Shown: positions 7,673-48,757 of the stretch, one piece after another
How the letters are laid out: every line of letters begins with the position of its first letter
Numbering within the stretch: the stretch's first letter is position 1
Source: Cenococcum geophilum 1.58
Lineage: Eukaryota > Ascomycota > Dothideomycetes > Gloniales > Gloniaceae
Length of the DNA: 64,000 bases
Direction of reading: 5' to 3'
NCBI GenBank assembly: GCA_001692895.1
Contig: KV748212.1
Location: forward strand, 62,001 to 126,000
Translations under genes and position numbers: made by a program
Notes under the pieces: model-generated
Seen by the model: only the letters and a program-made list of their open reading frames with translations
Databases searched by the model: none
Told to the model about the DNA's origin: nothing

Positions 7673-8157
7673 TAGATATACTCCCCCTATATTAACCTAA
7701 TAACTATACCATTAATATTAAATAAGGAAAAATACTACCTTATAAGAGACCCTACCTAATATTAAAAGATAAACTTTTAGTTATAAAAAAGTATATTAAC
7801 AAGCACCTTAATAAAGGATTTATTTGTCCTAGCATATTACTAGTAGCCGCCCCTATCCTTCTTGCTAAAAAGCTAGAAAAAGGTATTTAATTCTGCGTTA
7901 ACTATAGAGGACTTAACGCTATTATAATTAAAAACTAATACCTAGTACCGCTTATATATAAGACCCTTAAACGGCTTAGTTAAGCTAAAATCTATACTAA
8001 GCTTAATATTATCGCCGCCTTTAACTATCTCTAAATACGGGAAGGTAATAAATAGAAAACTATATTCGTATTGCGCTTTAGCCAATTTAAATATACTATT
8101 ATACCCTTTAGCGTATATAACGGCCTAGGCACCTTTTAAAGCTATATTAATAACGCC
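7673..8157 (+). pseudogene. gypsy B reverse transcriptase, N-terminal half
   Basis: The + strand reads the fungal gypsy RT entry segment (YINKHLNKGFICPS, then APILLAKK, then FCVNYRGLNAI, then FSVYNGLGTF) through scattered stops. It stops at the 12-bp target duplication attaataacgcc (8146-8157) and continues after the composite LINE at 11102, where the YLDDILIY catalytic box follows. The reading frame joins cleanly, which fixes the limits of the insertion. Confidence 0.85.
8146..8157 (+). repeat. TSD of composite LINE 8158-11101 (left copy)
   Basis: attaataacgcc, identical to 11102-11113. A 12-bp duplication of this kind fits LINE target-primed reverse transcription. Confidence 0.9.
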
Positions 8158-8470
8158 TGCCCGCGAAGCCCTACTGCACGCGTCCACGTCGCCGCGGGTG
8201 GAAACATCATTAGGAAAACCTTCCTTACGATGGCCAAGTGCAGAGGCGATGGTAGAGAGCCGTCGCAGCGCGTGCAGCGCGCTGTCGTCGCGGTTCTGTG
8301 GTGTTGAGCTCGCGACGCGTACGAAGCATCGTACAAAGCATCGCCCCCAACACCACCAGGAGCCTCACTGCCTCCGCTTGAGGCTCCTGCTCTACTATCT
8401 AGGGAGGCAATCAATCAAGGGAAACTGGGATACGAAAACCACCCGACGTACAACTACCTAGCTCGTAGCT
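8158..8470 (+). other. RIP-spared GC-rich start of module X
   Basis: About 310 bp at the 5' end of the composite element keep many CpA, TpG and CpG dinucleotides, while the sequence on both sides is TpA-saturated. Open frames on both strands here have no recognisable product and overlap each other, so no gene is called. The inverted copy at 28780-29003 is also partly spared. Confidence 0.7.
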
Positions 8471-11101
8471 AGGGCCGAAATTGGCCTTATTAAGCTAGCG
8501 GATGCAGACGCGTCCTAGGCGTACAACAGGACACCCTTAGGCTTGCACTAGCTCTAAGACCAAGATATGGCGAGGGCGTAGGGAACCTCTTTTTATAAGA
8601 ACTTGTTAAGGTTAACGCGTCGCAGATACTTTATACGAAACTTATTAAGGCCCTAAGGCCACTATAAAGAACTTGTTAAGGCCCTGCCTAGAGAACTTAT
8701 TAAGGTCCCTTTAAGGGCCTATCTAGTATTCGGTATACCTAGGTGACTTAAAAGAGGGTCTTAATAGGCGTAGTGCGCGCGACCTGGTCGACAGCGACGC
8801 GATAGCGACGTGACGGCGACGTGATGGCGACTAGACGGCTTAACGAGGTGGAAATATAGGTAAAGCTCTAGGCAGCGGAAACACAGGCCAGCTTTAACGG
8901 CCCTATGGCGTTAAAAGGTAACTTATAGGAGGGTCTTAATAGGCGTGGTGTATGTAACCTAATGTATATATATAAGGCGACTTATAGGAGGGTCTTAATA
9001 GGCGTAGTATATATAACCTAATGTATATATATAGGGGAGGCTATAGGGAAAATATAGGCCAGTTGGACAAGGACTTAATAGTTAGAGATATAGGCTAGCT
9101 TATAAAAAGGGGGGATATAAGCTTAGTTAGTAGAAGAGGGGGGAGTAAGTTACCTAGTACGGGACCTAGCGTCTTTACAGCCCCCTCCTATAAGACACGG
9201 TTGGCCTATTATAAAAAAACTCCTATAGGTAACGCGAAATAGAAACTAGCAGTAGTATAGGGTATTACGCCCCTATACTACTACTAGTTTCCTATAGGGC
9301 GTAGTATATAGCAGCCACTGCTAGCTTTAAGGACTTTACCCTTTAGCTAGGCTTTAACCCTTAATACACCTAGTAGATAGGTAGGATTACGTCCTAGCTA
9401 GAGAGATTACTATGTGGCTTAAAAGAATAGATATATGTGTTGGTATATTAATAGACAGGACCGTTCGCCTCTAGGGCGGTACGCCAGTAAGATATACTTA
9501 AGGAGTAAATAGGAGTTACTTAGGCGGGAGAGGTTTTGGCCCGGCCTTAACCGTAGAAGGTAGTAACGCCTAAGGGTAGGAATAAGCTACTGGAAAACTG
9601 GGGTAGAGGCCTAGATAAGTAGGTATATTAAACTCTACTATATTATAGCTAATATATAACTACCTATAGGAGTATAGGTAAATAGTAAGCTCTGGTAGAG
9701 TGTATATGCAGCGTAAGCGGCCTATAAGGGCTAAGTATAGTATATCATATTATCTAGGATCGTTAATTCTATATAGGGCCCATGCTTCTAAAGGTTACGC
9801 CTACTATATACAGCAGTTGTCCGGCTAACTATAACGTATAGGTCTAGTATCTGGGCCATTAGAGAATCTAAAAAAGGCCCTCTTAAATCGCTCCTTAAAC
9901 CACTCTAAAGGGTTTAAATAGCCTGCCTCTAGAGTATAATAGGTGGATATAAGTAAACGGCTACAGCTCTGCTTAAGAAGGAAGCTAATATTCCCCCCCT
10001 ATAACTATATATTAAAGCCGCTGTAATATAAAGGGCNTAAAAGGAANNNAACTNTAATNTTATAAAGTATATTAAGANANGNCTANATAAACTATAGAGG
10101 GACCCTAGGGCGCCTTATAGGAGAATAAACTAATAACCCTAAAGTAGGGAAGATATATTAGAGAAACAGGTAAAGAAAGTAGAAGAAAAATGGTGCTGCT
10201 TTAAGGCCTAGGCCTATATAGAGGAGGAAGGGAAACGCGTAAGAGGCCAGTAAGGATAATAGTAAGAAAGAGAAAGGAGCTAAAGTAGAGCATAAAAGAA
10301 TACTAGGAAACTATCTACCGTAATATAATACTGGCTAGACTAACGCTGGAGAGGTATATAGAAGTTAAAGGTATAGAGGCTAACTAAGGTAAGAGGAATC
10401 TAAGCTGTAGTATGGTTAATGCTATAGGGGGTAAACACCTTAAGGCTCCAAGAAGGCCTAATAAAGGTAGAAAATATAATAGTAATACTCTTAAGAACAA
10501 AAATAATAGGACTAAAAGACTGGCTCTACTAGGTAGGTGTTCTAATAGGTAGCCTAAGATGCGAATATAGCTGGCTAAGATAGACACTAAAACATGTAAT
10601 ACTATTATACCCCTTATACACTAATTAAGAAGTAATACTCTTAGTAGCTGGTATAGAGAACTATAAGATACCGCTCTTAATATAAAAAGGCCTTAAGGCG
10701 GTTACCTAGTAGCTTATTAGCTAAAATATACTAAACCAGTTCTGGGTTATAAAGGAAATAATAATAGAGGGCGGGGGGGCGAGTAACGGGCGCCCCCTAA
10801 TAACTCTATAGTAGTAGAGTAAAGTATATAATACTAGCGCGTCCGTAGGCTTATTACGGCAGCAGTAGTTTCTAAAGAGGTTAAAAAGTAAGGTAATAGG
10901 AGCACTATAGGTAACTTGTAGGCGCCTTATAGGCACCTTATAGGCGAGTCCTAAAAGGCGGGGAGATGGATTACGGGGTTTTCTCAAGTTAAGTCTTTCT
11001 TAAGTTGAGTTTTCTCCCCATATATAAATAAGGAGTAGTCCACGTGGGCCTAATAGGGATCTAAATCGGACGTTAAGCAATGAATTATTATTATTATTAT
11101 T
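8158..11101 (+). mobile_element. Composite LINE: 5' module X fused to a LINE 3' end
   Basis: 2944 bp between identical 12-bp target duplications (8146-8157, 11102-11113). The first about 1.5 kb (8158 to about 9662) is module X, starting GCCCGCGAAGCCC. The same module occurs inverted at 29003-27175. From about 9663 (TAGGAGTATAGG) to the (ATT)n tail at 11083-11101 it matches the 3' end of the LINE family seen at 18840-17428 and elsewhere. No reverse transcriptase core is included, so this copy is non-autonomous. The join lies after AACTACCT, the same module end used in the other copy but with a different LINE partner position. Confidence 0.8.
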
Positions 11102-11113
11102 ATTAATAACGCC

Positions 11114-12136
11114 TTATAGGACTACCTTAATAACTTCTGTTCTACATACCTAGACGATATACTTATTTATAGTAATAACCCCTCTAAGTATACTAAACAC
11201 GTTTAAAAGGTCCTACAGCGCTTTAGGGATGTAGGACTTTATATTAATTTAAAGAAATATAAATTCTTAGTTATAGAAGTAAAATACCTTAAACTAATTA
11301 TTACTACTAAGGATGTCCGTATGGACCCTAAGAAGGTACGTATAATTACCGAATAGTAAGCCCCTAACTATATTAAGGACGTATAAGCCTTCCTTAGTTT
11401 TGCTAACTTCTATTAAAAATTTATATATAACTTCTTAAGCGTAGTAGCACTACTTATAGCAATAATGCAAATAAAGGGCCTTTTTGTAAAAGGAAGAAAA
11501 ATGTACTTACGCTTTACCTAGACGCCTAAATACGAGAAGGCGTTCTAAGACCTTAAAAATGCCTTTACTAAAGCACCTATCCTAGCTTACTTTATACTAG
11601 GATAATAACTCTACCTTAAAACCAACTCCTTAGACCACGTTAACNTAGGCGTNCTCTTTTAGATAGGTAATAACGGTCTCCTTTACCTAGTTACATTCTA
11701 CTTGTCTAAGCTTATACTATAAGAGTATAACTATAAGATTTATAATAAAGAACTCCTTATAATTATATAAGCGTTTAAAGAATTTTAACTAGAACTTTCT
11801 TTAGTAGAGCTTAACTAGCTAACTAAAGTCCTTACGGACTATTGTAACCTTAAGTACTTTATAACTATAAAGCAGCTAAACTAACGCTAAGTATATTAAA
11901 ATAAGTTCCTCTTTAGTTTTAACTTTAAAATTATATATAAACTAGGAGTATAAGGTATTAAGCCTAATAGCCTAATACGCCGCTTATAAAACCTTCCTTA
12001 GTCTAAAGATAACCCCTATAATTAGTTCTAATAATAGATAATCTTAAAAGCACGAAATTTGGCCTTAAGTATACTACCTATAATAGAGCTAACTATACCC
12101 TAGCTTTATATTATAGAACTAAAGTTACCTCCTAAA
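11114..12136 (+). pseudogene. gypsy B reverse transcriptase C-half and RNase H
   Basis: The reading resumes after the composite LINE with the RT catalytic box STYLDDILIYSNN near 11140-11175, where both Asp codons are intact. The RT thumb follows. RNase H lies near 11580-11800 (AYF, YSNxLY-like and HDKELL-like positions, degraded). It ends before the second LINE insertion at its target duplication 12137-12148. Scattered stops and two N bases (11645, 11653) are present. Confidence 0.8.
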
Positions 12137-12148: not shown

Positions 12149-14236
12149 TTTTTTTATTTTTAGGTCCGTTGTATTATACTACGTATAATACTACGCATGC
12201 AGCCTCTAGGCTATGGCGCTATAGTTCTATATACATAAATCCTTTCTAGGCAGCTTAATATATACTAGTAGCTATATCCTAGTAGTTTATAAACCCCTAA
12301 GGGTATATAGCTCCTTAATGAAATACTAAGGTACTGCAACTACTAGGAAATAAGAAAACGGTAGGAAAAACTATAGAAAATCCTAACACCTGTCCCTGTC
12401 CTTTTGCAATTTATTTCTATCCTTTTGCTCTCTAATATCTTTTTAAGAGCCTAGTAGGAGTTGCCTCCTTCTAGAATCCTATCTGTTTTATTCTTCCATA
12501 GAATCTTCTTTACGTACTAGTTTAGCTGCTTTAAGAGTCTCGCAGTCTTTACTATTAGTAAAGTGTTTTTCTTTACAATTAATGCAAAGAGGGGTGGTAT
12601 ACTAGTAAGGCTTGCCTATTATTATATAGGTAGAACAGGAATGGTCTTTAGATAAATATGCAGCGGCATAGTATCTGCAGGCCCTAGTAGAGCACCTGTC
12701 TCCTATATGGCCAAATTTTTGGCAGCTCGTACACTGCGTAGTAGGAGAGACCTCGAGGTATTTTACTACCTTAGTAGCTGTACCTGCAATTGATATCTCT
12801 TTTTGCTTAAGGATTTCTTGTCTTTTTTCTTCGTTCTCTATAGTAAAAACTATAGAGCCAAATCTGGTCTATGGATTGTGTCTTTTTTCACTAAATAAGA
12901 TCTATCTAGGTAGTCCTTATATCCTTATAGGATTAAAGGTCTCGATTTCTTCCTTTAGGAGCTTAAAGCCTCCTTCTTTTAGGAAAGGTAGGGTAGGAAC
13001 CCTGTGGGCTATAATTTAAACCCATAGTTCTAGTTTTTGTTCTCTTTAAAAGGTAAAGCAGTTATACCAGATATTCTTATATTTGACTAAGAAATCTGTA
13101 TTATACTCTTCTGTAGTTATAAGGAAAATATTTTGTTTTCCTTTTGTTCTAGCTATCGATGCTAAAACTGGCTTTTTTACTTGTAATTTTGATGTAAATA
13201 GTTAATTGACTTTATTTCGTATAGAGAAGGTATTAGGGGTTGGTCCTTTTTGTCTATAATCAGGACTAGCTTTCTTTCTTATAGCTGCTTTTTCTTACTT
13301 CTAGTAGAAGTAGAAGGGGTAAGAGAAGGTAGTGATGAGGAAGGTAGTAAGGATAAAGAAGGGAGGTCCTTCTTTAGCCTCTCTGCGTAGGTTTCTTTAG
13401 TAGGGGCCACCTCCTTACGGAGAGCTCTTACTTCTTCGACTAGTCCTTTTAGGACTTCTTTTGTCTTTTCTTTCCCTTTTATAAAGGGATTTTCTCCTAC
13501 TAGGATACTGCGTGTATAGTCCTCTAGCTGTTTAACTTATTCTTTTTTTCCTTCTTCTTCTTTTTCTTCTAGCCCTTTATAGGCCTGGGTTAGGCTTTCT
13601 AAGGCCTTTTGTAGGTGTTGTTTTGGAGAAAGGGGAGGGAAGGATATACTAGGTATACCAGCCGTAAAAGTTATAAATTTTGTTGTCTTTTTTGCAGGTT
13701 TTTGGTTTTCTTTTTCGGTAGAAGACTAAGGATGTCCTCTTTTTTCTCCTGTCCTAAATAGGCCAAGAGAAGGAGAAGGGGCAGAGAAAGTGAATGTAGA
13801 CTTATTGTCACTTATTTCTATAGGAGGTTGTTGTTTTTTTTTATGCCTACTAGGCTTCGGCATCTTATAGGAAGGCTCCCTAGTTTTTACTATCCTTATA
13901 CCCTTTTTCCTTACTAATCCTACTAGAAGATTTCTGGGGAGATTAGGCTAAAAGGTAGTAGAAAAACTAGCTCCTATTTTGCAGTTTTGGTATTAGTGGT
14001 AGTAGTTTTAGTGTTCCCGTCCGTGCCTCGCTTATAAGCTAGGGCCACCCTTAGAGAAAATTTTCTGTTGGGAAAAGGGGGTAAAACGACCAATAAATCC
14101 ACCTCTAGCTCGCTAGGTAGTAGGAATTAGGTCTTAAAAGTTGGAAAATCGATTGTTTTTAATGGTAAGATGGGTATGCATAAGTTTTGAAGTGTGGCGC
14201 TACCTTTTAGTAAGGTTGCATGTGTAGTGTAAGCTT
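12149..14236 (-). mobile_element. ORF1-only, non-autonomous LINE (2088 bp)
   Basis: Flanked by an exact 12-bp duplication (attaataagctt at 12137-12148 and 14237-14248). On the minus strand the order is a 5' leader (14236-13864), a gag-like ORF1 (about 13863-12400), and a 3' stretch ending in an A-rich tail (tttttttttattttt at the + strand left end). There is no endonuclease or reverse transcriptase, so it must rely on a partner LINE. It retains CpA/TpG far better than the host gypsy B around it, so it is less RIP-mutated. It is a different family from the (TTA)n-tailed LINEs at 16.4-33.6 kb. Confidence 0.8.
12400..13863 (-). pseudogene. LINE ORF1 (gag-like, CCHC zinc knuckles), few stops
   Basis: Starts at the ATG complementary to 13861-13863 (MPKPSRHKKK). 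A Lys/Gln-rich N-terminus is followed by a Glu/Lys-rich, probably coiled-coil segment (13640-13340). A zinc-knuckle block lies near 12740-12550, with CTSCQKFGHIGDRC and then CINCKEKHFTNSKDC, typical of the nucleic-acid-binding ORF1 protein of Tad1/I-type LINEs. About half a dozen in-frame stops, mostly TAG/TAA, interrupt it. It would coat LINE RNA. Assignment by motif is good; the exact 3' end is uncertain. Confidence 0.75.
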
Positions 14237-16409: not shown

Positions 16410-16423
16410 TTAAAGTATATTTA

Positions 16424-17412
16424 TTATTATTTATTGCTTAACGTCTAATTTGGATCCCTATTGGGCCTACGCGGACTACTCCTTATATACATATAGGGAG
16501 AAAACTCTATTTAAGAAAACCCCGTAATCTATTTCCCCGCCTTTTAGGACTTGCCTATAAGGCGCCTATAAGTTACCTATAGTGCTCTACTACCTTACTT
16601 TTTAACCTTTTTAGGAACTATTGCTGCTGTAATAAGCCTACGGACGCGCTAGTATTGTAAACTTTACTCTACCACTATAAAGTTATTAGGGGGCGCCCGT
16701 TACTCGCCCCCCCTACCTTTTATTACTATTTCCTTTACAACCTAAAACTAGTTTAGTATATTTTAGCTAATAAGCCACTAGGTAACCGCCTTAAGGCCTT
16801 TTTATATTAAGAGTAGTATATTATAGTTCTCTATACTAACTACTAAGAGTATTACTTCTTAGTTAGTATATAAGGGGTATAATAGTATTACGTATTTTAG
16901 TGTCTATCTTAGCTAGCTATATTTATATCTTAGGCTACCTACTAGGACACCTACCTAGTAGAGCTAGTCTTTTAGTCCTATTATTCCTATTCTTAAGAGT
17001 ATTACTATTATATTTTCTGCCTTTATTAGGCCTTCTTAGAGTCCTAAAGTATTTACCCCCTATAGCGTTAACTATGCTACGGCTTAGGTTCCTCTTACCT
17101 TAGTTAGCCTCTATACCTTTAACTCCTATATACCTCTTTAGCGTTGGTCTAGCTAGTATTATATTATAGTAGATAGTTTTCTAGCATTATTTTATGCTCT
17201 ACTTTAGCTCCTTTCTCTCTTTTATTATTATCTTTACTAGCCTCTTACGCGTCTTCCTTTCTCCTCTATATGGGCCTAGGCCCTAAAGTAGCACCATTTT
17301 TTATTTGCTTTCTTTACCTATTTCTCTAATATATTTTCCCTACTTTAGGGTTATTAGTTTATTCTCCTATAGGGCGCCCTAAGGTCCCTCTATAGTTTAT
17401 TTAGGCGTATCT
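16424..17412 (-). mobile_element. LINE D, 3' portion (Tad1-like, TTA-type tail)
   Basis: Reads leftward and ends in an ATT/TAA-type tail near 16424-16434. The sequence aligns with 17428-18440 and with 11101-10080 (inverted). It contains the ORF2 C-terminus and 3' UTR of the LINE. It is cut at 17413-17427 by the target duplication of composite L2 and continues at 29019. The probable outer target duplication (ttaaag...tttta near 16410-16423 and 33552-33566) is imperfect. Confidence 0.7.
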
Positions 17413-17427
17413 TAATATACTTTATAA
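17413..17427. repeat. TSD of composite LINE L2 (left copy)
   Basis: taatatactttataa, identical to 29004-29018. The two copies bracket 17428-29003, showing that everything between entered as one LINE insertion plus later nested material. Confidence 0.9.
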
Positions 17428-20400
17428 TAATAATAATTTATTACTTAACGTCCGATTTAGATCCCTATTAGGCCTACGCGGACTACTCCTTATATACATA
17501 TAGGGAGAAAACTCTATTTAAGAAAACCCCGTAATCTATCTCCCTGCCTTTTAGGACTCGCCTATAAAGCGCCTATAAGGCGCCTACGAGTCACCTATGG
17601 TGCTCCTACTACCTTACTTTTTAACCTCCTTAGGAACTACTGCTGCCGTAATAAGCCTACGGACGCGCTAGTATTGTAAACTTTACTCTACTACTATAGA
17701 GTTATTAAGGGGCGCCCGTTACTCGCCCTCCTACCCTCTATTACTATTTCCCTTATAACCTAGAACTGGTTTAGTATATTTTAGCTAATAAGCCACTAGG
17801 TAACCGCCTTAAGGCCTTTTTATATTAAGAGTAGTATATTATAGTTCTCTATGCTAGCTACTAAAAGCATTACTTCTTAGTTAGTGCGTAAGGGGTATAA
17901 CAATATTACGTGTTTTAGTGTCTGTTTTAGCCAGCTATATTTATATCTTAGGCTACCTACTAAGATACCTACCTAATAGAGCCAGTTTTTTTTAGTCTTA
18001 TTATTCCTATTCTTAAGAGTGTCGCCATTATATTTTCTACCTTTGTTAGGCCTTCTTAGAGTCCTAGAGTGTTTACCCCCTATAGCGTTAACTATGCTAT
18101 AGCTTAGGTTCCTCTTACCTTAGTTAGCCTCTATACCTTTAACTTCTATACGCTTCTTTAGCGTTAGTCTAATCAGTATTATATTACGATAGATGGTTTC
18201 CTAGCGTTCTTTTATGCTCTACTTTAGCTCCTTTTTCTCTCTTATTATTATCTTTACTGGCCTCTTATATATCTCCCTTTCTCCTCTATATAGGCCTAGG
18301 CCCTAAAGCAGCACTATTTTTCTTCTACTTTCTTTACCTGTTTCTCTAATATATCTTCCCTACTTTAGGGTTATTAGTTTATTCTCCTATAGGGCGCCCT
18401 AAGGTCTCTCTATAGTTTATTTAGGCGTATCTTAATATACTTTATAATATTAGAGTTGCGTTTATTTTAGGCCCTTTATATTATAGCGGCTTTAATATAT
18501 AGTTATAGGGGGGGAATATTGGCTTCCTTCTTAAGAAGTGCTATAGCCGTTTGCTTATATCCGCCTATTATACTCTAGAGGTAGGCTATTTAGACCTTTT
18601 AGAGTAGTTTAAGGAGCGACTTAGGGGGGCCTTTTTTAGATTCTCTAATGGCCTAAATACTGGACCTATATATTATAGTTGGCCGGACAACTGCTGTATA
18701 TAGTAGGCGTGACCTCTAAAAGCATAGGCCCTATATAGAATTAACGATCCTAGATAATGTAATATACTATACTTAGCCCTTATAGGCTGCTTACGCCGTA
18801 TATATACTTTACTGGAGCTTACTGTTTACCTATACTCCTAATACCCTTAGGCCCTTAACTAGTTAACCCCTAAAGCCTTAAATGTGGATTATATACTAGA
18901 GATCTATAGATTAGTTGCGTTTTCTTATAAAATAGATTAGCTAGTATTTCTCTAGTAAGAATTAGACTCTATATTGTCTTACCTATTCTATATAGGTATT
19001 ATAAGCTTTCTCTAGCATTCTGCAATTCTTTATAGCTGATGGCCCGTATATAATTAGGTTTGTATTATTAATAAAGCCTATTCCCTAGGTCGCCCCTTCT
19101 TTAAAGGAGTTAAGTAGGTTGCTTATAAAGAAAGGGAAGAGTATAGGCGAGAGGGGTAATCCTTATAGTATTCCTATTGTAACTGTAATAGGGGGGCTTT
19201 GGTATCCGCTAAAGACTAATAATATTTCTTTCTAACCTATAAACCCTTAGATAAATTATATAATCCATTCTAAGAAGCCTTTTACCCTAAGGATATATAG
19301 GAGACGCTTATGGGGTACGTTATTATAGGCGCCACTAATATCTAGGCTAAGCATTAATACTATAAAGTCCCTTCGCATCGCCTATATAGATTTAATAGTG
19401 GTAGCGAGTAGCGTAAGTGCTAATAGTGTTAAGCGGTTCTTTCTTGCCCCTATTTAGCTCTATAGTAGTAGGGCGTATTCCTTAGCCGTGTCTACTATAT
19501 AGTCCACTATTACCTTTTCTAAGATCTTGTTAAGGGTGTTTTCTAAGGCAATAGGGCGGTAGCTTCCTAGAATTAAGTAATCTGCTTTACCTTCTTTTTA
19601 TAGAATAACCGTCGTTATAAATCTTCTAAGTTATAGGTAGTAGCCTATAGCAAAGTATGCTTTAGCTATATCTATAAGCTAGGGTGCTATAAGTGGTCTA
19701 TAGGTCTTTAAGGCCTTATTTAGAATCCTATCTAGACCTAATACTATATTATTTAAAAGGCGGCTAATAGTTCTAGCCATTTCCTCTATTATTATATTGC
19801 TGTTAACCCGCAGGCGAGTTACCGGTGCTTTACCTGTAATATTACTAAGGTCTACTAGAGCTAGTTAGGGGAAGAACCTTTCTATAAGGATCTTTATCTT
19901 CTTATCGTTATTATTAGTAGCTTATAATTTCCCTGCTCTTTATAGAAGTAGTAAGTATAAGTCTTCTACTAGTCGCCCTGCCTTTTTCTTTACCTATTTT
20001 GCTATAGCCTATAGGCCCTTATTATAGGGGAGGCTTGGGTTAAAAGTATACTTATTTATAAATTATCTCTAGTTATTCCTTACTTCTTTTTTTAGGGTAT
20101 TCTTTAACTAGTTTTTTATATCTTTATATTATCTCTTATCTTTAGGGTTATAGCTACTTAAGTATTTCCTTCTTACTTGTTATTGGCTAGCTATAAGAAC
20201 CGCGTATTATACGGACTATGCGTATTATGTATAGGGGCCTAGTCTTAAAACCGGGTAGTGCTCTTTTAGCCTATTTTTAATTACTGCCTAGATCCTTTCT
20301 AGTCTTTAGTTAATTTCCTTAGGGGTAGCTAATAAGCCTCGCTTATTTAGTATCGGGTAGATTTCTTTCTAAGGTCTTAGAGTTGTTATTTAACTTATAT

Positions 20401-20831
20401 TAGGAAAACTGTTTATCTTAAGTATCTTATTATATAATCTTTTTACTATTTGTTTACGCCTTAATATCTAAATCTAGCTATATCTAGATGGGGGATATAG
20501 TCTAAAGGTAAGTGCCCATTCTTCTTTAGGGTTATACCTTTTAAGTCTCTGGTATAGGCCTTCGTCTATAAATATAAGGTTATTAATTACTTCTAGCGGG
20601 TCCTTATTGCCATATATTTACTCTAGGGGGGGGTAAGCTAGCTTAAGGCCCTAGTATCTATAGCTTTTAGTAAGGTACTTTACCTATTGGTTTAGCAGTA
20701 AACGTAGATACCCCCTAACTATAGGTAGTAGAAGGTTTATATCTCCCTAATAAGAATAGACTCTATACCTTTGGTTTTAAGTAAGCTTATTACTAATATA
20801 ATATTCTCTATTTATAGGACCCCTTTAACCC
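17428..20831 (-). mobile_element. Composite LINE L2, 3' part with reverse transcriptase
   Basis: Minus-strand LINE from the (TTA)n tail at 17428 to the L3 insertion. RT reads near 19850-19250: LGLDRILNKALK, then LGSYRPIALENTLNKILEK, then MLSLDISGAYNNVPHKRL, the Tad1/I-type RT layout. The C-terminal part of the endonuclease lies near 20830-20500 (GDINLLLP). All frames carry RIP-type stops. It continues at 26448. Confidence 0.85.
19250..19850 (-). pseudogene. LINE L2 ORF2 reverse transcriptase core, inactivated
   Basis: Conserved blocks of a non-LTR RT are readable in the minus strand: YRPIAL, the fingers segment, LSLDISGAYNNV with the first catalytic Asp, and HKRLLYILRVKGF. In-frame TAG/TAA stops every few dozen codons show it is dead. 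The equivalent blocks recur at about 23260-22690 (L3) and about 30400-29830 (D). Confidence 0.85.
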
Positions 20832-20843
20832 TAAGGTTATATA
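20832..20843. repeat. TSD of LINE L3 (left copy)
   Basis: taaggttatata, repeated at 26436-26447. It brackets L3 within L2. Confidence 0.8.
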
Positions 20844-23800
20844 ATAAATAATAATTTATTACTTAACGTCCGATTTTGGATCCTATTAGGCCTATACGGA
20901 CTACTCCTTATATAATAATATAGGGAGAAAACTCTATTTAAAAAAACCCCTATAATACTATCTCCCTGCCTTTTAGGACTCGCCTATAAGGCGCTTATAA
21001 GGCGCCTGGTGAGTTCACCTAATAGGTGCTTTTACTACCTTACTTTTTTAAACCTTTTTTAGGAACTACTTGCCGGCCGTAATAAGCCTACGGACGCGCT
21101 AGTATTGTAAACTTTTACTCTACTAACTATAAAGTCATTAGGGGGCGCCCGTTGCTCCGCCCCCTTTACCCTTTATTACTATTTCCCTTATAACCTAGAA
21201 CTGGTTTTAGTATATTTTAGCTAATATAAGCCACTAAGGTAACCGCCTTAAGGCCCTTTTTATATTAAGAGTAGTATATTAATAGTTCCTCTATACAGCT
21301 TACTAAAAGTATTACTTCTTAGTTAGTGCGTAAGGGTAATAACAGTATTACATATTTTTAGATGTCTGTCTTAGCCAGCTATATTGATATCTTAGGCTAC
21401 CTTACTAGGACACCTACCCGGTAGAGCCAGTCTTTTAGTCCTATTATTCCTATTCTTAAGAGTATTAACTATTATATTTCTGGCCTTCGTTAGGCCTTCT
21501 TAGAGCCCTAGAGTATTTACCCCCTATAGCGTTAACTATGCTATAGCTTAGGTTCCTCTTGCCTTAGTTAGCCTCTATACCTTTAACTCCTATATATCTC
21601 TCTAGCGTTAGTCTAACCAGTATTATATTATAGTAGATAGTTTCCTAGCGTTCTTTCGTACTCTGCTTTAGCTCCTTTCTCTCTTTTACTATTATCTTTA
21701 CTAGCCTCTTACGCGTTTCCCTTCCTTCTTTATATAGGCCTAGGCCTTAAAGTAGCACTATTTTTCTTCTACTTTCTTTACCTGTTTCTCTAATATATCT
21801 TCCCTATTTTAGGGTTATTGGTTTATTCTCCTATAGGGCGCCCTAGGGTCCCTCTATAGTTTATTTAGGTATGTTTTAATATACTTTATAACATTAGAGT
21901 TGCGTTTATTTTAGGCCCTTTATATTACAGTGGCTTTAATATATAGTTATAGGGGGGGAATATTAGCTTCCTTTTTAAGAAGTGCTATAGCCGTTTGCTT
22001 ATATCCGCCTATTATACTCTAGAGGCAGGCTATTTAGACCTTTTAGAGTAATTTAAGGAGCGACTTAGGGGGGCCTTTCTTAGATTCTCTAATAGCCCAA
22101 ATACTAGACCTATATGTTATGGTTGGCCGGACAACTGCTATATATAGTAGGCGTAACCTCTAGAAGTATAGGCCCTATATAAAATTAACGATCCTAGATA
22201 ATGCGATATACTATACTTAGCCCTTATAGGCCGCTTACGCCATATATACGCTCCACTAGAGCTTACTATCTACCTATACTCCTAATACCCTTAGGCCCTA
22301 AACTAGTTAACCCCTAAAGCCTTAAATACGGATTATATGCTAGAGATCTGTAAATTAGTTGCGTTTTCTTATAAAATAGATTAGCTAGTATTTCTCTAAT
22401 AAGAATTAGACTCTATATCGTCTTGCCTATTCTATATAGGTATTATAAGCTTTCTTTAGTATTCTGTAATTCTCTATAGCTAATAGCCCGTATATAATTA
22501 GGTTTATATTATTAACAAAGCCTATTCCCTAGGTCGCCCCTTCCTTAAAGGAGTTAAGTAGGTTACTTATAAAGAAAAGGAAGAGTATAGGCGAGAGGGG
22601 TAATCCTTATAGTATTCCTATTATAACTGTAATAGGGGGGCTCTAGTATCTGCTAAAGATTAATAATATTTCTTTCTAACCTATAAACCCTTAAATAAAT
22701 TGTACAATCTATTCTAGAAAGCCTTTTACCCTAAGGATATATAGGAGACGCTTGTAGGGTACGTTGTTATAGGCGCCACTAATATCTAAGCTAAGTATTA
22801 ATACTATAAAGTCCCTTCGCATCGCCCATACAGATTTAATAGTGGCAGCGAGTAGCGTAAGTGCTAATAGTGTTAAGCGGTTCTTTCTTACCCCTATTTA
22901 GCTCTATAGTAATAGGGCGTATTCTTTAACCGTATCTACTATATAGTCCGCTATTACCTTTTTTAAGATCTTACTAAGGGTGTTTTTTAAGGTAATAGGG
23001 CGGTAGCTTTCTGGGATTAAGTAATCTACTTTACCTTCTTTTCGTAGGACAACCGTTATTATAGATCTTCCGAGTTATAAGTAGTAGCCTATAGTAAAGT
23101 ATGCTCTAGCTATATCTATAAGCTAGGGTGCTATAAGTAGTCTATAGGTCTTTAAGGCCTTATTTAGAATCCCATCTAGACCTAGTACTATATTATTTAA
23201 AAGGCGGCTAATAGTTCTGGCTATTTCCTCTATTATTATATCGCTGTTAACCTATAGGTAAGTTACCGGTACTTTACCCGTAATATTACTAAGGTCTACT
23301 AAAGCTAGTTAGGGGAAGAACCTTTCTATAAGGATCTTTGCCTTCTTATTATTATTATTAGTGGCCTGTAATTCCCCTGCTCTTTATAGGGGTAGTAGGT
23401 ATAAGTCTTCTGCTAATTACCCTGCCTTTTTCTTTACCTATTTTGCTATAGCCTATAGGCCTTTATTATAGGGAAGGCTTAGGTTAAAAGTATGCTTATT
23501 TATAAATTATCTTTAGTTATTCCTTACTTCTTTTTTTAGAGTGTTCTTTAACTAGTTTCTTATGTCTTTATATTATCTCTTATCTTTAAAGTTATAGCTA
23601 CTTAAGTATTTCCTTCTTACTCGTTATTGGCTAGCTATAAAAACCGCGCATTATACGGACTATATATATTGCGCGTAGGGGCCCAGTTTTAAGACCGGGT
23701 AGTACTTTTCTAGCCCATTTTTAATCGCTGCCTAGATCCTTTCTAGTCTTCGGTTAATTTCCTTAGGGGTGGCTACTAAGCCTCGCTTGTTTAGTATTAG

Positions 23801-26435
23801 GTAGATTTCTTCTAAGTCTTAAAGTTGTTATTTAACTGTATTAAGGAAACTATTTGCCTTAAGTATCCTTATTACATATCTTTTACTATTTAGTTACGCC
23901 TTAATATCTAAATCTAGCTATATCTAGATGGGGATATAGTCTAAGGTAAGTGCCTATTCTTCTTTAGGGTTATACCTTTTAAGTCTCTAGTATAGGCCTT
24001 CGTCTATAAATATAAGGTTAATTATACTTCTAGCGGGTCCTTATTACTATATAATTACTCTAGGGGGAGTGGCCAGCTTAAGGCCCCAGGTGTCTATAGC
24101 TTTTAGTAGGCACTCTACCTATTATTTAATAGTGACGTAGATACCCCCCCACCGTAGGTAGTAGAGGTTTATATCTCCTAATAGGATAAACTCTATACCT
24201 TTGGTTTTAAGTAAGCTTATTACTAATATAATATTCTCTATTTATAGGACCCCTTTAACCCTAGGGTTATATACATTAATAATTTATACCGGTCCTCTAT
24301 ATGTCTAGATTATTATAACTATAATATCTAGATTAACTGCCTACTATAACTATAAGGATAGGCTAATAGTCTTACTAATTATAAAGCATATATATATGGC
24401 TACTTTTGGTTCGTATAGGAGCTAGAATCCTTAGGGGCAGTATATCGATTATATATAGGTATTGTAGTACGGCTCTTATATAGCAAGGATATAGTATTTC
24501 TCTAGGTCTAAACTGTCTAGTAAGGGCCTTATAAGACAGTGGTTTATATTGCTATAGTTATACTATATAATAGATAGGTGGCGGACCCCTAGCGAGGGTC
24601 CTTCGCCTTTTTATTATTCCTCGCTTCTTCTATTTCTACTTTCTTTAGGATATTTAAGACTTTTATCTCTTATGTTTATACCTTAGTTACTACTTATTTT
24701 ATATAGAGCTTTCCATTCCCGTATCTTATGTTCCTACTAGCGCTTCTATATCTAAATCTAATATTATCTCTAGTTCTTCCCCTATTCTTACTAGTTAGCT
24801 ATATATCCTTTAAAAGTCGGCTACGAATATTATATTTGCCGCGTTAAGTCTAATTCTTAATTATCCCGGTCTTAAGCTTACTATAGCTGTCTATAAGGGT
24901 CTTCCTACAAAGCGTCCTCTCCCTTATATCCCCTGTAACCCTTATATCCCTATATAGTCTAGTAATATCGCGCGGCGTCGCTTCTAGCCCGTTAAGGCTT
25001 AGGATAGCTAGCCTAGCCCCCCAGTATTAAAGGTAGAAAACGCTAAAAAGGTACCTACGCCCCCCTAGCTTATCGCCTATTATTTCCATTTATATAACCT
25101 AGCGTGTAGTTATTCCCGCAGCTGTTAAGCCCTTACCTTCTATCTCCTGTATTTAATGTAGTTTTCTCTCTCCTACGCCTTATATGTACTTTAGTAGCAG
25201 TTTACGCATTTTATTTAGTCTTAATTTAAGCAGTGTCTTATATTATAGGGGCCTATATAGTGGCCGCAGCATACCTATACTATATATGTGGATTAAGTGT
25301 ATCCTTATTATACGTAGCAATAATATTATTTTAGGCGGAGTCTGTAGTTATAGAGCCTTACGTCGTATATAAGGCTATTTATAATAATACCTTTTTAAAT
25401 AAGGAGTTTTTGCATTCCTAGTATATATATGCTAACAATAAGGGAGCTATACGTTTAACTAGCGTTTCCCTAGCGAGTCTCTAGCGACCCTTATATTCTT
25501 TTATTATTCTTATTATATACTTAGTTTATATTTTCCTATTAAAGCTATTAGATTTGGGTAATCTTAAGTCCTAATATAAGGCGTTCCGTTTATTTTACTA
25601 TCTTATATATAGTTGCTGTATTGTCCGCCTAGCGTCCCTTTTCTACCCTAAGGCTTAGGGGAACCGCTAGGACTTTAACTAGGTAATCTTCGCGGAGTAC
25701 TTTTATGCCAATATATTCTCCTAGCCTATCCCCTACCCTAACGGCTCGTTCCTTTACCTATTAGTCCCTTAGGGTAACTCTAATATCTTCGCTCCTAAGG
25801 TGCTAGACTATAACAGCGTTATAAACCTCTTTATAAATCTCTATAAGGACTTCTGTTTCTAATTATCCCCTAAGCCCCTCTACTTTTTTTATATTTAGTT
25901 ATATTATAATTATATACCCGGATATTATCTTTAGGGGGGTGGGTTCCCTATACTATAGACGCGCAGCTATAGCGGCCCAGGTGCGGTTCGCCGGTAAAGA
26001 GGGGTTTTATTTATTTTTAATTTTGCTTAACCGTTAGAGGATTTAATTAAGGGTTTGCTAGAGGGGCGCCTAAGGTTTACTAGATTAGCGGAGCCATTCT
26101 ACTAGCTATATTAGTTCGTTATAGCTAACAGTTACTCCCCCGTAACTACGGATACTAAACACGTCTAATAGGCTTTATATTTTATTAAATGCCTTCTTAA
26201 TAGAGGTCTTTCTGCTTTATAGTGTGGTATTCGCCCGTTCTTATTATAGAGGGCTATTGCTAGGCGTAGTTTTAGTAGACGCGCGCGAGTATAAACTACC
26301 GTCGTTTAATATATACCTCCCCTGCGATATATATATCTTAGGGGGATTCTCTAGGTATTTTTTAGGGTTCTTTTAGTTGGTTTTAGTCTTTTTGGGCCGG
26401 GTGCAGTAAGAGCTCCACGTCGATTTTTTTAAGAT
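20844..26435 (-). mobile_element. LINE L3, near full length (Tad1-like), nested in L2
   Basis: 5592 bp on the minus strand. In its own 5' to 3' order it has a 5' end near 26435 (GGAGCTCTTACTGCACCCGG region), an ORF1 region (about 26200-25000), endonuclease (about 24620-23900), RT (about 23260-22690), the ORF2 C-terminus and a (TTA)n tail at 20844. It aligns with D over 24256-26420 versus 31400-33551. It lacks module X. It is saturated with RIP-type stops and cannot encode enzymes. Confidence 0.85.
24000..24620 (-). pseudogene. LINE L3 ORF2 endonuclease N-terminal region
   Basis: Minus-strand translation gives an apurinic-endonuclease-like start (an L.QY.......R motif resembling LQYNVNRS and then a region matching the QEPW position). 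The downstream part resembles the GDxNL motif seen in the sister copy near 20750. It would nick target DNA for TPRT. RIP stops prevent a clean reading, so limits are approximate. Confidence 0.5.
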
Positions 26436-26447
26436 TAAGGTTATATA

Positions 26448-27174
26448 TATTAATAATTTATACCAGTCCTCTATATGTCTAGATTATTATAACTATAATA
26501 TCTAGATTAACTGCCTACTATAACTATAAGGATAGGCTAATAGTTTTACTAATTATAAAGATACGCGTGTGGCTGCTTTTGGTTTATATAGGAGCTAAAA
26601 TTCTCAGGGGCAGTATGTTGATTGTGTATAGGTATTATAGTACGGCTCTTATATAGTAAGGATATAGTATTTCTCTAGGTCTAGACTATCTAGTAAGGGC
26701 CTTACAAGACGGTGGTTTGTGTTACTATAGTTATACTATATAATGGATAGGTAGCGGACCCCTAGTAAGGGTCCTTCGCCTTTCTATTATTCCTTACTTC
26801 TTCCATTTCTACTTTTTTTAGAATATTTAAAACTTCTATCTCTTATATCTGCACCCTAGTTACTACTTATTTTATATAGAGCTTTCTATTCCCGTATCTT
26901 ATATTCCTACTAGCGCTTTTATATCTAAATCTAATATTATCTTTAGTTTTTCCCCTATTTTTACTAGTTGGCTATATACCCTTTAAGAGTTAGCTATAAA
27001 TATTATATTTGCCGCGTTAAGTCTAATTCTTAATTATCCTAGTTTTAAGCTTGCTATAGCTGTCCATAAGGGTCTTCCTATAGGGCGTCCTCTTCCTTAT
27101 ATCCCCTATGACCCTTATATCCCTATATAGTCTAGTAATATTATACAGCGTCACTTCTGGCCCGTTAAGGCTTA
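26448..27174 (-). mobile_element. Composite LINE L2, endonuclease part, up to its junction with module X
   Basis: Aligns with 24268-25007 of L3 and 31390-32130 of D. At about 27175 the LINE homology stops within CCTAAGCCTTAACGGG and module X begins after ACTACCT. The same module end meets a different LINE position at about 9662. Confidence 0.8.
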
Positions 27175-29003
27175 GGCAGGTAGTTATATAGTAAAGTTTA
27201 ATATACCTACTTATCTAGGCCTCTACCTTAGTTTTTAAGTAGCTTTCCCTTACTAAGCCTAAGGGCCTAGGGCTTTCCATAAGCAATTAGCTGCCATTAC
27301 CAATTAATGGGGAATTTTACTATTCTTTTAGGTATTTTATAATGGGATTAGCCTAAGTACTAGACTGCCCCCTAGCGGTCTATATAAGAGTCTCCTTTTA
27401 GAGTTAGTACGCTTTTATATAGCTTAGGAGCCTTCTATAGCCTCTAGTTTTACGCCTTTCTTTATTATTTCCGCCAGTATAGGCATAAGCTACCATTTTT
27501 AGGGGTCGTAACTCCCTTCTTACGTGCCTACTGGCGTAATCCTATAAGGGTGTTATAGCTGCATCCTGTAATATAGAAGCCTTAAGTACCTTCTGCAGTT
27601 AAGGCCTAGACTAAAAAAGCCTCCCCTACCTAAGTAACTCCTATTTACTCCTTAAGCATATCTTACTAGTAAGCCGCCCTAGAGGTAAACGGTTTTGTCT
27701 ATTAATATACTAATACGCGCATTTATTCTCTTAAGCTATATAGCAGTCTTCTTCGGCTAGGACGTAATTCTACCTATATACTAGGTGCATTAGGGGTTAA
27801 AGCCTAGCTAAGGGGTAAGGTCCCTAAAGCTAGCAATAGCTACTACGCACTACGCCTTATAGGAGGCTAGTAGTAATATAGGGGCGTAATACCCTATATA
27901 CTACCAGCTTCCGTTTTACGTTACCCATAAAGATCTCCTTATAATAGGCCAACCGTGTCTTATAGGAGAGGGGCTATAAAGACACTAGGTCCTATACCGG
28001 ACAACCTACTCTCCTCTCTCCTACTAACTAAGCTTATATCCCCCCCTTTTATAAGCTAGCCTATATCTCTAACTGTTAAGTCCTTATCTAACTAGCCTGT
28101 GTTTCCCTTATAGCCTCCCCCATATATATACATTAGGTTGCGTACACTATGCCTATTAAGACCCTTCTATAAGTCGCCTTATACATATACGCATTAGGTT
28201 ACGTATACTACGCCTATTAAGACCCTCCTATAAGTCGCCTGTAAGTCAACTATAAGTTAAACGCCATAGGGCCGTTAAAGCTGGCCTGTGTTTCCCTACC
28301 TAGAGCTTTACCCGTGTTTCTACCTCATTAGGCCGTCTAGTCGCCGTCGCGTCACCGTCGTAGCGCTATCGCGTCGCCGTCCCCTAGGTCGCGCGCACCA
28401 CGCCTATTAAGACCCTCTTCTAAGTTACCTAATTATACTAGATACCAGATGGGCCCTTATAGAGGGGCCTTAATAAGTTCTTTAGGTAGGGCCTTAATAA
28501 GTTCTTTATGGTGGCCTTAGGGCCTTAATAAGTTTCGTATAAAGTATTTGCGACGCGTTAACCTTAACAAGTTCTTATAAAAGGGGGATCCCTACGCCTT
28601 TATCGCGCTTACTTTGTAATCTTAGAGCTAGTGCAAGCCTAAGGGTGTCCTATTATATGCCTAGGACGCGTCTATATTAACTAGCTAGATAAGGCTAGTT
28701 TTGGGCCTAGCTGCAAGCTAGGTAGTTATATATTAAGCGGTTTTTGTATCCTAGTTTCCCTTAATGGGCCTCCCTAGATGGTAGAATAAGAGCTCTAAGT
28801 AGAGGCAGTAAGGCTCCTAGTGTTATTAAGGGTAATACTTTGCACGCGTCGCGGGTTCGTCACCATAGAGTCGAACGACAGCGCTATACGCGCTGCGACG
28901 GCTCTCTACCATTGCCTCTGCACTTGGCCATTAAGAGGAATAGGATTCCAGATAATGTTTCCACCCGCGGCGACGTGGACGCGTATAGTAGGGCTTCGCG
29001 GGC
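27175..29003 (-). mobile_element. Module X, second copy (5' module of composite L2)
   Basis: Inverted copy of 8158 to about 9662 with the same outer end (GCCCGCGAAGCCC, complementary to about 29003-28991) and the same inner end. It is about 1.8 kb here and about 1.5 kb in the other copy because of indels. It contains repeated ga(c/t)ttaataggcg-like and cttgttaagg-like short motifs and a partly RIP-spared 5' edge (28780-29003). It does not resemble the 5' region of LINE D or L3. No protein was recognised. Confidence 0.75.
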
Positions 29004-29018
29004 TAATATACTTTATAA
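29004..29018. repeat. TSD of composite LINE L2 (right copy)
   Basis: taatatactttataa, identical to 17413-17427. Confidence 0.9.
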
Positions 29019-32000: not shown

Positions 32001-33551
32001 AGCTTACTATAGCTATCTATAAGGGTCTTCCTATAGGGCGTTCTCTCCCTTATATCCCCTATAACCCTTATATCCCTATATAGTCTAGTAATATTATATA
32101 GCGTCGCTTCTAGCCTATTAAGGCTTAGGATAGCTAGCCTAGCCCCCTAGTATTAAAGGTAAGAAACGCTAAAAAGGCACCTACGCCCCCCTAGCTTATT
32201 ACTTATTGTTTCCATTTATATAACCTAGCGTATAGTTATTCCTATAGCTATTAAGCCCTTACCTTCCGTCTCCTATATTTAATACAGTCTTCTCTCTCCT
32301 ACGCCTTATATATACTTTAGTAGTAATTTATATATTTTATTTAGTCTTAATTTAAGTAATGTTTTATATTATAGGGGCCTATATAGTGGCCGCAGCACAC
32401 CTATACTACGTATATGGATTAGGTGTATCCCTATTATATATAGCGGTAGTATTATTTTAGGTAGAGTCTATAGTTATAAAGCCTTATATTATATATAAGG
32501 CTATTTATAATAATACCTTTTTAGATAAGGAGTTTTTGTATTTTTAGTATATATATACTAACGATAAAGGAGCTATATATTTAACTAGCGTTTCTTTAGC
32601 GAGTCTCTAGCGACCCTTATATTCTTTTATTATTCTTATTATATACTTAGTTTATATTTTACTATTATAGCTATTAGATTTAGGTAATCTTAAGTCCTAG
32701 TATAAGGTATTTCGTTTATTTTACTATCTTATATATAGTTACTATATTATCCACCTAGCGTCCCTTTTCTACCTTAAGGCTTAGGGAAACCGCTAAGACT
32801 TTAACTAAGTAATCTTTATAGAGCACTTTTATGCTAATATATTCTCCTAGCCTATCCCCTACCCTTATAGCTTATTCCTTTACCTATTAGTCCCTTAAGG
32901 TAACTTTAATATCTTTACTCCTAAGGTATTAGACTATAATAGCGTTATAAACCTCTTTATAAATCTTTATAAGGACTTCTATTTTTAATTATCCCCTAAA
33001 CCCCTTTACTTTTTTTATATTTAGTTATATTATAATTATATACCCAGATATTATCTTTAAGGGGGTAGGTTCCCTATACTATAAAAGCGCAGCTATAGCG
33101 GCCTAGGTACGGTTCGCCGGTAAAAAGGGATTTTATTTATTTTTAATTTTACTTAGCTATTAGAGGATTTAATTAAGGGTTTGCTAAAGGGGCGCCTAAG
33201 GTTTACTAGACTAGCGGAGCTATTCTACTAGCTATATTAGTTTATTATAGCTAACGGTTACTCCCCTATAGCTATAAATACTAGACGCGTCTAATAGGCT
33301 TTATATTTTATTAGATGCCTTCTTAATAGAGGTCTTTCCGCTTTATGGTGTGGTATTCGCCCATTCTTGTTGTGGAGGGCCATTGCTGGGCGTGGTTCTG
33401 GTGGACGCGCGCGAGTGCGAACCACCGTCGTTCGACGTGTGCCTCCCCTGCGATGCATGCATCTCAGGGGGATTCTCTGGGTGTTTTTTCAGGGTTCTTT
33501 TGGTTGGTTTTGGTCTTTTTGGGCCGGGTGCAGCAAGAGCTCCTCTTTCAG
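29019..33551 (-). mobile_element. LINE D, 5' portion (RT, endonuclease, ORF1 region)
   Basis: Continuation of the LINE whose 3' end is at 16424-17412. RT blocks lie near 30400-29830, endonuclease near 31750-31000 and the ORF1 region near 33300-32150. It aligns throughout with L3. It is RIP-saturated up to about 33340, then abruptly unmutated to its 5' end at about 33551. There is one N at 31558. Confidence 0.8.
33345..33551 (-). other. Un-RIPed 5' end of LINE D
   Basis: About 207 bp in which CpA and TpG are intact and composition is GC-rich, in the same LINE copy whose adjacent part is TpA-saturated. Aligned with the mutated copy at 26222-26425, nearly all differences are C-to-T in CpA or G-to-A in TpG (for example cgatgcatgcatctcag against cgatatatatatcttag). 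This is probably the LINE 5' UTR. Overlapping short + strand frames here are not credible genes. Confidence 0.8.
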
Positions 33552-48636: not shown

Positions 48637-48757
48637 TAAGTATCAGGAAACGGCGCTATCCCATTCGGGTTTAGTGTTACACTTGCTTGGCAGAAACCCC
48701 TCAACGCGTCCTCTAGAGAACTTTTCCTCACTCGCGTCCTCACTCATCATTGCAACG

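Follow-up and report, generated by a model that had tools for sequence, protein, structure and literature searches.

A MINE-like system of composite retroelements in Cenococcum geophilum, apparently built on a non-coding RNA with an HDV-like ribozyme fold at its head

The genome of the fungus Cenococcum geophilum 1.58 contains composite retroelements in which an apparently non-coding module, here called X, is fused to the 3´ parts of long interspersed nuclear elements (LINEs) and of other partners. Two copies lie in a 64,000-nucleotide stretch (positions 62001–126000 of contig KV748212.1, C37 in our numbering; hereafter the window), and the search was extended to the 177.19 Mb assembly of 162 contigs. 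The ends of X are fixed, its partners begin at variable positions and run in sense orientation, target-site duplications (TSDs) bound the composites, and the module opens with a fold resembling the ribozyme of hepatitis delta virus (HDV). Judged by its anatomy, this would be a second and larger system of the type described as MINE in Magnaporthe (PMC2104539), built on a ribozyme-headed RNA. That X is such an RNA, captured by template jumps during LINE retrotransposition, is an explanation that we consider probable rather than secure. A first-pass annotation of the window had already proposed the likeness to MINE, and the anatomy agrees with the published account; the ribozyme-like fold and the several partner families are additions to it. 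The two composites and the LINEs around them are arranged as follows.

8145–8158, plus strand: 5´ TSD of composite copy 1, TATTAATAACGCCT, 14 bp, repeated at 11101–11114
8159–9666, plus strand: X of copy 1, short form, 1,508 bp; its last base is the terminal G of X, here read as A
8159–8248, plus strand: predicted HDV-like ribozyme fold, beginning with the first base of X in copy 1; fold descriptor match exactly at 8159, no Rfam HDV match
9667–11100, plus strand: LINE 3´ part of copy 1, 5´-truncated, family LB from LB position 4133, with a TTA microsatellite tail
11101–11114, plus strand: 3´ TSD of composite copy 1
29004–29020, minus strand: 5´ TSD of composite copy 2, a 17-bp match, TATTATAAAGTATATTA
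27177–29003, minus strand: X of copy 2, long form, 1,827 bp, ending in ACTACCTG
28914–29003, minus strand: predicted HDV-like fold of copy 2; Rfam RF00094 matched over the whole model at 28911–29005, no descriptor match
26428–27176, minus strand: initial segment of the LINE portion in copy 2, from LB position 1414 onward
17430–20852, minus strand: remainder of that LINE part beyond the nested LINE B, edges approximate (self-comparison)
17413–17429, minus strand: 3´ TSD of copy 2, beside a microsatellite tail
20841–26416, minus strand: LINE B, 5,576 bp, native 5´ end GAGCTCTTACTGCAC, lying within copy 2
29004–33543, minus strand: LINE A, in which copy 2 lies; native LINE 5´ end at 33543, remaining 3´ part at about 16416–17432

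The annotation had described copy 1 as a module fused to the 3´ end of a LINE between duplicated target sites, and this arrangement is borne out; the duplications are present but measure 14 rather than 12 bp, and X spans 8159–9666 rather than 8158 to about 9662. It had also placed the same module, inverted, at a different internal LINE position, as is indeed the case for copy 2 (X at 29003–27177, with a 17-bp flanking match). With LINE B as the reference (LB) for join positions, copy 1 is joined at 4133 and copy 2 at 1414; in the self-comparison of the window the two modules align over 1,446 nt at 81% identity. Self-comparison and TSDs together give the order of nesting: copy 2 entered LINE A, and LINE B later entered copy 2. 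The 17-bp match of copy 2 occurs a third time at 18433–18449, in a homologous LINE stretch. The window is TA-rich, and its TpA/ApT of 1.54 and (CpA+TpG)/(ApC+GpT) of 0.69 are characteristic of repeat-induced point mutation (RIP), the effect being greatest over the repeats.

Further copies, which the annotation had proposed to look for, are numerous. The first 40 nt of X, with at most 3 mismatches, occur at 273 places in the genome (141 + 132) and the reversed control pattern at 0; among the matches listed, at least 100 copies keep these 40 nt exact despite the RIP-mutated background. Three genome searches with X gave 528, 525 and 405 first-look candidates, of which 40 were scored in each. The 5´ end is present in 52 of 55 examined copies, many of them picked for holding that end; L011 and L024 are 5´-truncated, and L055 has no match. 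Of 60 copies chosen solely by the exact 5´ 40-mer, 50 have a complete 3´ end and one (L111) an altered one; in nine it is absent from the fetched stretch. Tabulated in this way, as the annotation had suggested, both module ends prove fixed. Across 26 aligned copies X measures 1,460–1,828 nt (the longest value includes one partner base), and its first 200 nt are among the best conserved stretches, at 0.93–0.94 identity against 0.79–0.93 in the other full blocks. Four subtypes can be told apart from their final 40 nt and from a block of about 320 bp, and each is joined to several partner groups.

The longest open stretch of X is 100 aa in copies 1 and 2, and up to 144 aa from stop to stop in another copy. 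Pfam gave no match for the longest open reading frame (ORF) of X in copy 1, ARAGORN found 0 tRNA genes in seven loci, and Rfam over window positions 8100–11150 returned only mir-268 at E=0.58. An origin from an RNA polymerase III transcript was set aside because X has an internal T run and no T run at its 3´ end. A stand-alone locus of X, for which the annotation had proposed to look, was not recognised among the copies read, none of the eight copies with unassigned partners having a TSD directly after X. Head-to-tail dimers of X, the expectation for a tandem array or a circle, were sought with two patterns, with 0 of 7 convincing matches and 0 of 4. At several loci (L014, L019, L034, L104, L114; also C45:1438303-1440486, C17:2447188-2449578 and C25:43631-45661) X runs into the interior of a second X, and some of them seem to contain a chain of such joins, as serial captures would give.

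The junctions were read in the best matches of the first X search (L001–L030), in 20 copies of the second (L031–L050) and in the 60 copies chosen by the 5´ 40-mer (L088–L127 and L132–L151), which yielded 99 table rows and, without L002, whose module is 3´-truncated, 98 junctions. The 3´ end of the module was located by a match to ACTACCT with one mismatch allowed, so that its fixed position is partly a matter of construction; the base that follows is not, and 63 of the 98 junctions have a G there and 35 an A. We read the A, including that of copy 1, as the RIP-mutated form of a terminal G. At this place the parental partner has G 6, T 29, C 20 and A 13 times in the 68 of 87 junctions with at least two comparable parental sequences (mixed columns were called C over T and G over A, to allow for RIP), and since the parent has G in just 6 of 68, the G belongs to X. 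The ACTACCT that the annotation gave as the end of the module stands at the read junctions, but X extends one base further, and the CCTA/TA microhomology proposed for the joins finds no support. From the next base on, the parental sequence is rich in C (46, 42 and 28 of 68 at +1, +2 and +3).

The joins that could be placed on LB number 39, from 38 loci and from copy 2, and occupy 37 distinct positions between 72 and 5219, where the annotation had allowed for a single fixed family with one identical LINE junction. Their spread over the 5,576 bp of LB is indistinguishable from uniform (Kolmogorov–Smirnov p=0.14), and at the read junctions no single partner position follows X in more than two copies. 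The two coincident positions, 2943 (L042, L113) and 4832 (L021, L035), bring together different X subtypes within each pair. Five further junctions outside the LB count are common to two copies each (L088/L146, L132/L148, L091/L109, L092/L119, L090/L127), three of them between different subtypes. The distinct join positions, the several partners and the occurrence of each subtype with several partner groups point to repeated captures rather than one amplified composite, and we are almost certain that the great majority of the copies read arose from independent captures. An X ending in GCC(C) and joined through C microhomology was considered and rejected, as partner positions without C show no left-over C; splicing was likewise rejected, as the parental LINE bases before the join are not generally AG. 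In L050, a reversed LINE piece of 34 nt stands between X and LINE position 1.

The partners were sorted by local DNA similarity of short stretches and labelled by hand. The 99 rows comprise LB (43, including L050), c (11), d (9), e (8), g (7), b or other LINE (5), f (4), X itself (3), eight unassigned partners, and L002 with its reversed LINE; inner X-to-X joins are found additionally in L014 and L019. Group b is about 60% identical to LB. Because the LB reference spans an entire element, any group that shows no similarity to it represents another family. A count of seven separate families was nevertheless rejected, since e and f are parts of one element, in which they lie in order on the minus strand of the window at about 14228–12399. 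Four families are secure, namely LB, b, d and the e/f element, and groups c and g either belong to the last of these as well or stand for families of their own. In Pfam, partner ORFs gave RNase H for two, both of group c (PF00075, E=2.5e-6 in L107 and, below the cut-off, 2.7e-5 in L123), and a few sub-threshold matches to other domains. Two of the eight unassigned partners were searched in the genome and are repeats. The window itself holds, at about 12399–14228 on the minus strand, the remains of another LINE-like element with 81–97% identity to partner stretches e and f.

Insertion of X and partner as one unit is seen from the TSDs. Among the 28 loci of L001–L030 that hold the 5´ end of X, 11 have a TSD of 12–15 bp, one copy of which follows the partner tail while the other touches X; copy 2 of the window is bounded in this way as well, by its 17-bp match. 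These 11 loci, with X and partner bounded by one TSD, are the following.

L001, L003, L007, L008, L016, L017, L018, L020, L021, L023, L027

In the other 17 no tail with TSD was recognised, the partner running beyond the fetched end in several; short matches lacking a tail were left uncounted. The known TSDs touch X without an extra base, with the exception of the rearranged L020. Partners of the LB family are in sense orientation, except in L002, where the LINE is reversed within the 3´ end of X, and in part in L050.

X is not the 5´ end of the LINE in the window, an identity that the annotation had named as the alternative to be excluded. The 5´ region of LINE A as genome query gave 1691 first-look candidates, the best 40 of which were scored; the 39 copies besides that of the window begin at query positions 524–559, near the LINE's own GAGCTCTTGCTGCAC end, and 30 of them at 557–559. 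The 11 LINE 5´ ends that were read all start with GAGCTCTT, and in 10 of them this is preceded by an additional G, as a copied cap would leave; the LINE RNA may therefore be capped, these ends being taken by themselves rather than against TSDs. By comparison, the base before X is G in 0 of 52 copies and A in 32, where A could be a mutated G.

The head of X can be folded into the nested double pseudoknot of HDV-class ribozymes. P1 pairs G1 and the following CCCGCG with CGCGGGU, with a G-U pair at G1; P2 is CUGCAC/GUGCAG with an outer GCC/GGC; P3 is GCG/CGC, closing the loop UCCACGU; P1.1 is CC/GG; and P4 is followed by a J4/2 of the form GGC(C/U)AAG. In alignment A1, J4/2 reads (G/A)GC(C/T)AAG with a nearly invariant C, which we take to be the catalytic C of the class. 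When the 31 pairs of P1, P2, P3, P1.1 and P4 are laid on 48 copies, 92.8% of 1,488 cells are paired, compared with 32.5–54% when the pairing is slid by 1–3 columns. Both sides of a pair have changed in 27 cells, where shuffles give 12.9 and 0 of 500 reach the observed number, and in 7 pairs, where shuffles give 3.7 and 18 of 500 reach it. Most variation in the fold is of RIP type; the double-sided changes in P4 that go beyond it, A-U to G-C and A-U to U-A, occur in four sequences each and probably stem from one event apiece. The first 300 nt of L008 have a folding z of -4.0.

Rfam points in the same direction. Copy 2 matches RF00094 with 27.4 bits (E=0.017; gathering cut-off 50) and RF00622 with E=0.028; L052 matches RF02682 with 31.1 bits (E=1.8e-4) and RF00094 with E=0.0034; matches were obtained in three of 10 further loci (L085, L086, L087). 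A covariance model, R1, run over 31 loci, found 11 X copies and three weak matches (E 0.045–2.9), not the element d described below. Over the 703,852 strand-bases of sequence that were fetched, the fold descriptor gave 48 matches, and 42 of these lie no more than 1 nt from the 5´ end of X or d; in 640,000 bases of first-order random sequence it gave 1. We are confident that the ribozyme fold at the 5´ end of X is real, and X would then be predicted to cleave itself immediately before G1. Elsewhere in the genome, L170 (C81:661519-661594, minus strand), which is neither an X nor a d copy, has a weak match to HDV-F-prausnitzii (28.9 bits, E=0.156).

A second element with such a head, d, was reached through joins such as L016 and L019. 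It is about 1 kb long (L025:499-1500), and its 5´ region with upstream flank as query gave 1003 first-look candidates, the best 40 of which were scored; 24 of the 39 other copies start within 3 bases of the 5´ end of d, and 15 continue into the flank. The copies read measure 997–1021 bp and have a TSD of 12–20 bp in 11 of 11, abutting GGCCGUC in 10. The fold comprises P1 GGCCGUC/GACGGCU, P2 CUCUGC/GCAGAG, P3 ACC/GGU and P1.1 GU/AC; end to end, it aligns weakly with RF02682 and RF01787 (E=2.1 and 2.9), its sole two matches. Its tail, AGACGTTAATTAAAGAGTTACTAC, resembles the 3´ end of the LINE in the window. In anatomy d looks like a short internally deleted element (SIDE) of the kind described for R2 (PMC3414825). 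At L025:484-1515, d lies between repeated TATATATCTTCA, with an X composite directly after it and another d end before it.

We propose that X is the DNA copy of a non-coding RNA of 1.46–1.83 kb, the 5´ end of which would be generated by an HDV-like self-cleaving ribozyme and the 3´ end of which would be discrete (ending in ACUACCUG, without poly(A)), its terminal chemistry being a matter of conjecture. During target-primed reverse transcription, a LINE reverse transcriptase would quit the LINE RNA at an internal place and resume on the 3´ end of the X RNA. It would copy this RNA as far as the 5´ end made by ribozyme cleavage, and insertion of the chimeric product would create a TSD of 12–17 bp. 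The first template could be the RNA of several retroelement families or another X RNA. A fixed 3´ base of X combined with a free position in the partner agrees with a reverse transcriptase switching onto the 3´ terminus of the X RNA, and in vitro a non-LTR (long terminal repeat) reverse transcriptase jumps best with an overhang of 1 nt, at most 2 nt, matching the end of the new template (PMC8857657). With its ribozyme-like head, the captured RNA may also owe its exact 5´ end to self-cleavage.

Several observations weigh against this proposal. On the side of the ribozyme, all Rfam matches of X fall under the gathering cut-offs (best 31–34 bits against 44–50) and copy 1 has no HDV match at all; a genome search with RF00094 gave 0 matches, and one with RF02682 gave no X copy and one weak match (E=0.156); 4 and 8, respectively, of 14 control genomes give matches. 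The counts of double-sided changes ignore the relatedness of the 48 copies, and further pair types are no more numerous than in shuffles (19 against 17.4, reached by 92 of 500). The fold descriptor was composed after X and d had been seen, and at least 33 of 75 X or d ends fail it, copy 2 included (some loci overlap). On the side of capture, none of the 39 LB joins is at position 1, the native 5´ end, which is unexpected if the enzyme jumps at run-off; the C-rich start of the partners is left without explanation; eight of 98 partners are unassigned; and the reverse transcriptase of LB is matched by RVT_1 only weakly in Pfam (E=0.05–0.14). Seven junctions are common to two copies each, and even with different X subtypes in five of them, L088/L146 and L092/L119, with the same subtype within each pair, could be copies of one composite. 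No source gene of X was found in the sequences searched, and the ends of its RNA are deduced from DNA.

The same observations allow other explanations to be weighed. A single composite family of SVA type, arisen once and then amplified, could account for the common junctions; it is very hard to reconcile with 37 positions in 39 LINE joins, with several partner families and with the mixed subtypes at five of the seven common junctions, and we regard it as most improbable. Equally so is chance neighbourhood, by LINE insertion into or beside older X copies or by recombination at the DNA level: nested insertions are common in the window, and L002 has its LINE reversed within the 3´ end of X, yet one TSD bounds X and partner in 11 loci and in copy 2, LB partners other than L002 and part of L050 are in sense, and the end of X is fixed. 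X could further be the normal 5´ untranslated region of some autonomous LINE whose intact form escaped our sample. Non-LTR elements such as R2 and L1Tc typically carry a ribozyme at their 5´ end, and the stretches read of groups c, e, f and g stop short of their own 5´ ends; nevertheless, a 3´ end at one fixed base in 98 of 98 junctions, with no partner position in more than two copies, and the different 5´ end of the window's LINE make this improbable too, if slightly less so. Somewhat more weight, still small, attaches to the view that the 5´ fold is no ribozyme and that the fixed end of X is a transcription start or another kind of RNA end. The sub-threshold Rfam scores, absent for copy 1 and genome-wide, leave room for it, as activity is a matter of prediction; it has to face the fact that the fold opens right at the terminus of the element, both in X and, as a separate case, in d, the presence of P1–P4, P1.1 and J4/2 together, and the lack of a preceding G in any of 52 X copies (allowing that the A in 32 may be a mutated G).

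The most serious competitor concerns the joining itself. An enzyme of the tRNA ligase type might first join X RNA, by a 2´,3´-cyclic phosphate at its 3´ end, to LINE RNA fragments with a 5´-OH, and the chimera would then be copied from the LINE tail. Such a reaction would use one fixed 3´ base of X without need of microhomology, the predominance of C at the start of the partners resembles a cleavage preference, and ligation before reverse transcription has been considered for human U6/L1 chimeras (PMC8857657; PMC13174262). The lack of joins at the native LINE 5´ end, in a genome where copies reaching that end are abundant (40 scored of 1691 first-look candidates), also fits ligation if the LINE end is capped, because capped ends cannot be joined in this way. 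However, there is no direct sign of ligation; the cap follows only from the extra G at 10 of 11 LINE 5´ ends; and two of seven mapped X-d joins are at d positions 3–4, next to the native end of d if not at its first base. Joins of module to module are expected under template jump and ligation alike. Ligation is thus a real, if lesser, possibility, and we think it reasonably likely that the pieces were joined by a template jump instead.

To our knowledge, MINE is the only well-described fungal system of such chimeras of RNA and LINE, and its RNA is unexplained. As described in PMC2104539, 31 MINEs join a full-length 5´ copy of the non-coding WEIRD RNA (1.1 kb) to variably truncated MGL LINEs in the same orientation, with TSDs of 10–20 bp and no solo copy found, and the X composites share this plan of a full-length 5´ copy of one apparently non-coding RNA with fixed ends, sense-fused to variably truncated LINE ends. 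In MINE the RNA is also joined to a short interspersed nuclear element (SINE) and occurs in a tripartite form, which we count among the likenesses. The two systems differ in scale (31 MINEs there; 98 read junctions and 273 5´ ends of X here), in partners (one LINE and one SINE against at least four families), in the length of the RNA (1.1 kb against 1.46–1.83 kb), in the join (GCC*A/U in MGL against X's own G and a C-rich partner start) and, WEIRD not being known to have one, in the HDV-like fold with which X begins. In the R2 SIDEs and R2/R1 hybrid SIDEs of Drosophila a 5´ HDV-like ribozyme is likewise joined to a non-LTR 3´ end, which comes either from the ribozyme's own element or from a different one; template jumps to small RNAs were also seen in that work (PMC3414825). 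SIDEs, as described there, are families of one structure that propagate as such, whereas X composites differ in their junctions; X, without a fixed LINE tail of its own, is not a SIDE of R2 type, in which a 5´ ribozyme and a LINE 3´ recognition end make up one fixed element. A SINE, too, would have a LINE tail, behind a head of RNA polymerase III type; X has no fixed tail of this kind, and no tRNA gene was found in seven loci.

Mammalian U6/L1 and other RNA/LINE-1 chimeras offer another parallel, with a 5´ non-coding RNA, a 5´-truncated LINE in sense and TSDs, and both template switching and RNA ligation have been considered for them (PMC13174262). There, in the cases described, the RNAs are known cellular ones; X is far longer, has no known source and carries a ribozyme-like fold. 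Retrozymes and the Varkud satellite (VS) RNA code for no protein, contain self-cleaving ribozymes and are copied by the reverse transcriptase of another element, plant retrozymes having hammerhead motifs in LTRs. X differs from retrozymes in its one 5´ HDV-like fold, and two patterns revealed no head-to-tail dimers. Active variant ribozymes of the HDV class are known from fungi, with 230 in 26 species (PMC5640933); as far as that account describes them, they have C-G at the cleavage site, an inserted P2–P3 base and a loop E in P4, whereas X has G-U at the base of P1 and no inserted base. Its main text refers to 'widely variable gene associations' and has 0 occurrences of 'retrotransposon'. Among the matches listed in a search of the open-access literature, limited to titles and abstract openings, no HDV-like ribozyme heading fungal LINE chimeras was found, which is not proof of absence.

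With more copies and several partner families, the X composites provide statistics, gathered in nature, on where a non-LTR reverse transcriptase leaves or picks up RNAs. The question raised by WEIRD, namely the nature of the RNA and the origin of its ends, becomes directly testable through the ribozyme-like head, and element d suggests that SIDE-like, ribozyme-headed retroelements exist in fungi. One intriguing but rather doubtful possibility is that X is a parasite rather than a housekeeping RNA, a ribozyme-headed non-coding element without a tail recognised by reverse transcriptase, which would spread only by addition to the 5´ end of copies of other retroelements. Each insert could then become a new source, because the ribozyme would free the 5´ end of X from a read-through transcript and an internal signal would set the 3´ end. 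If so, capture by template switch or ligation would be a stable mode of transposition, of which WEIRD may be a second case.

Outside the composites, the window contains a 428-bp AT-rich inverted repeat at 48214–48641, consisting of two 196-nt arms that are 94% complementary. It encloses one match of the fold descriptor, at 48365, which looks like chance.

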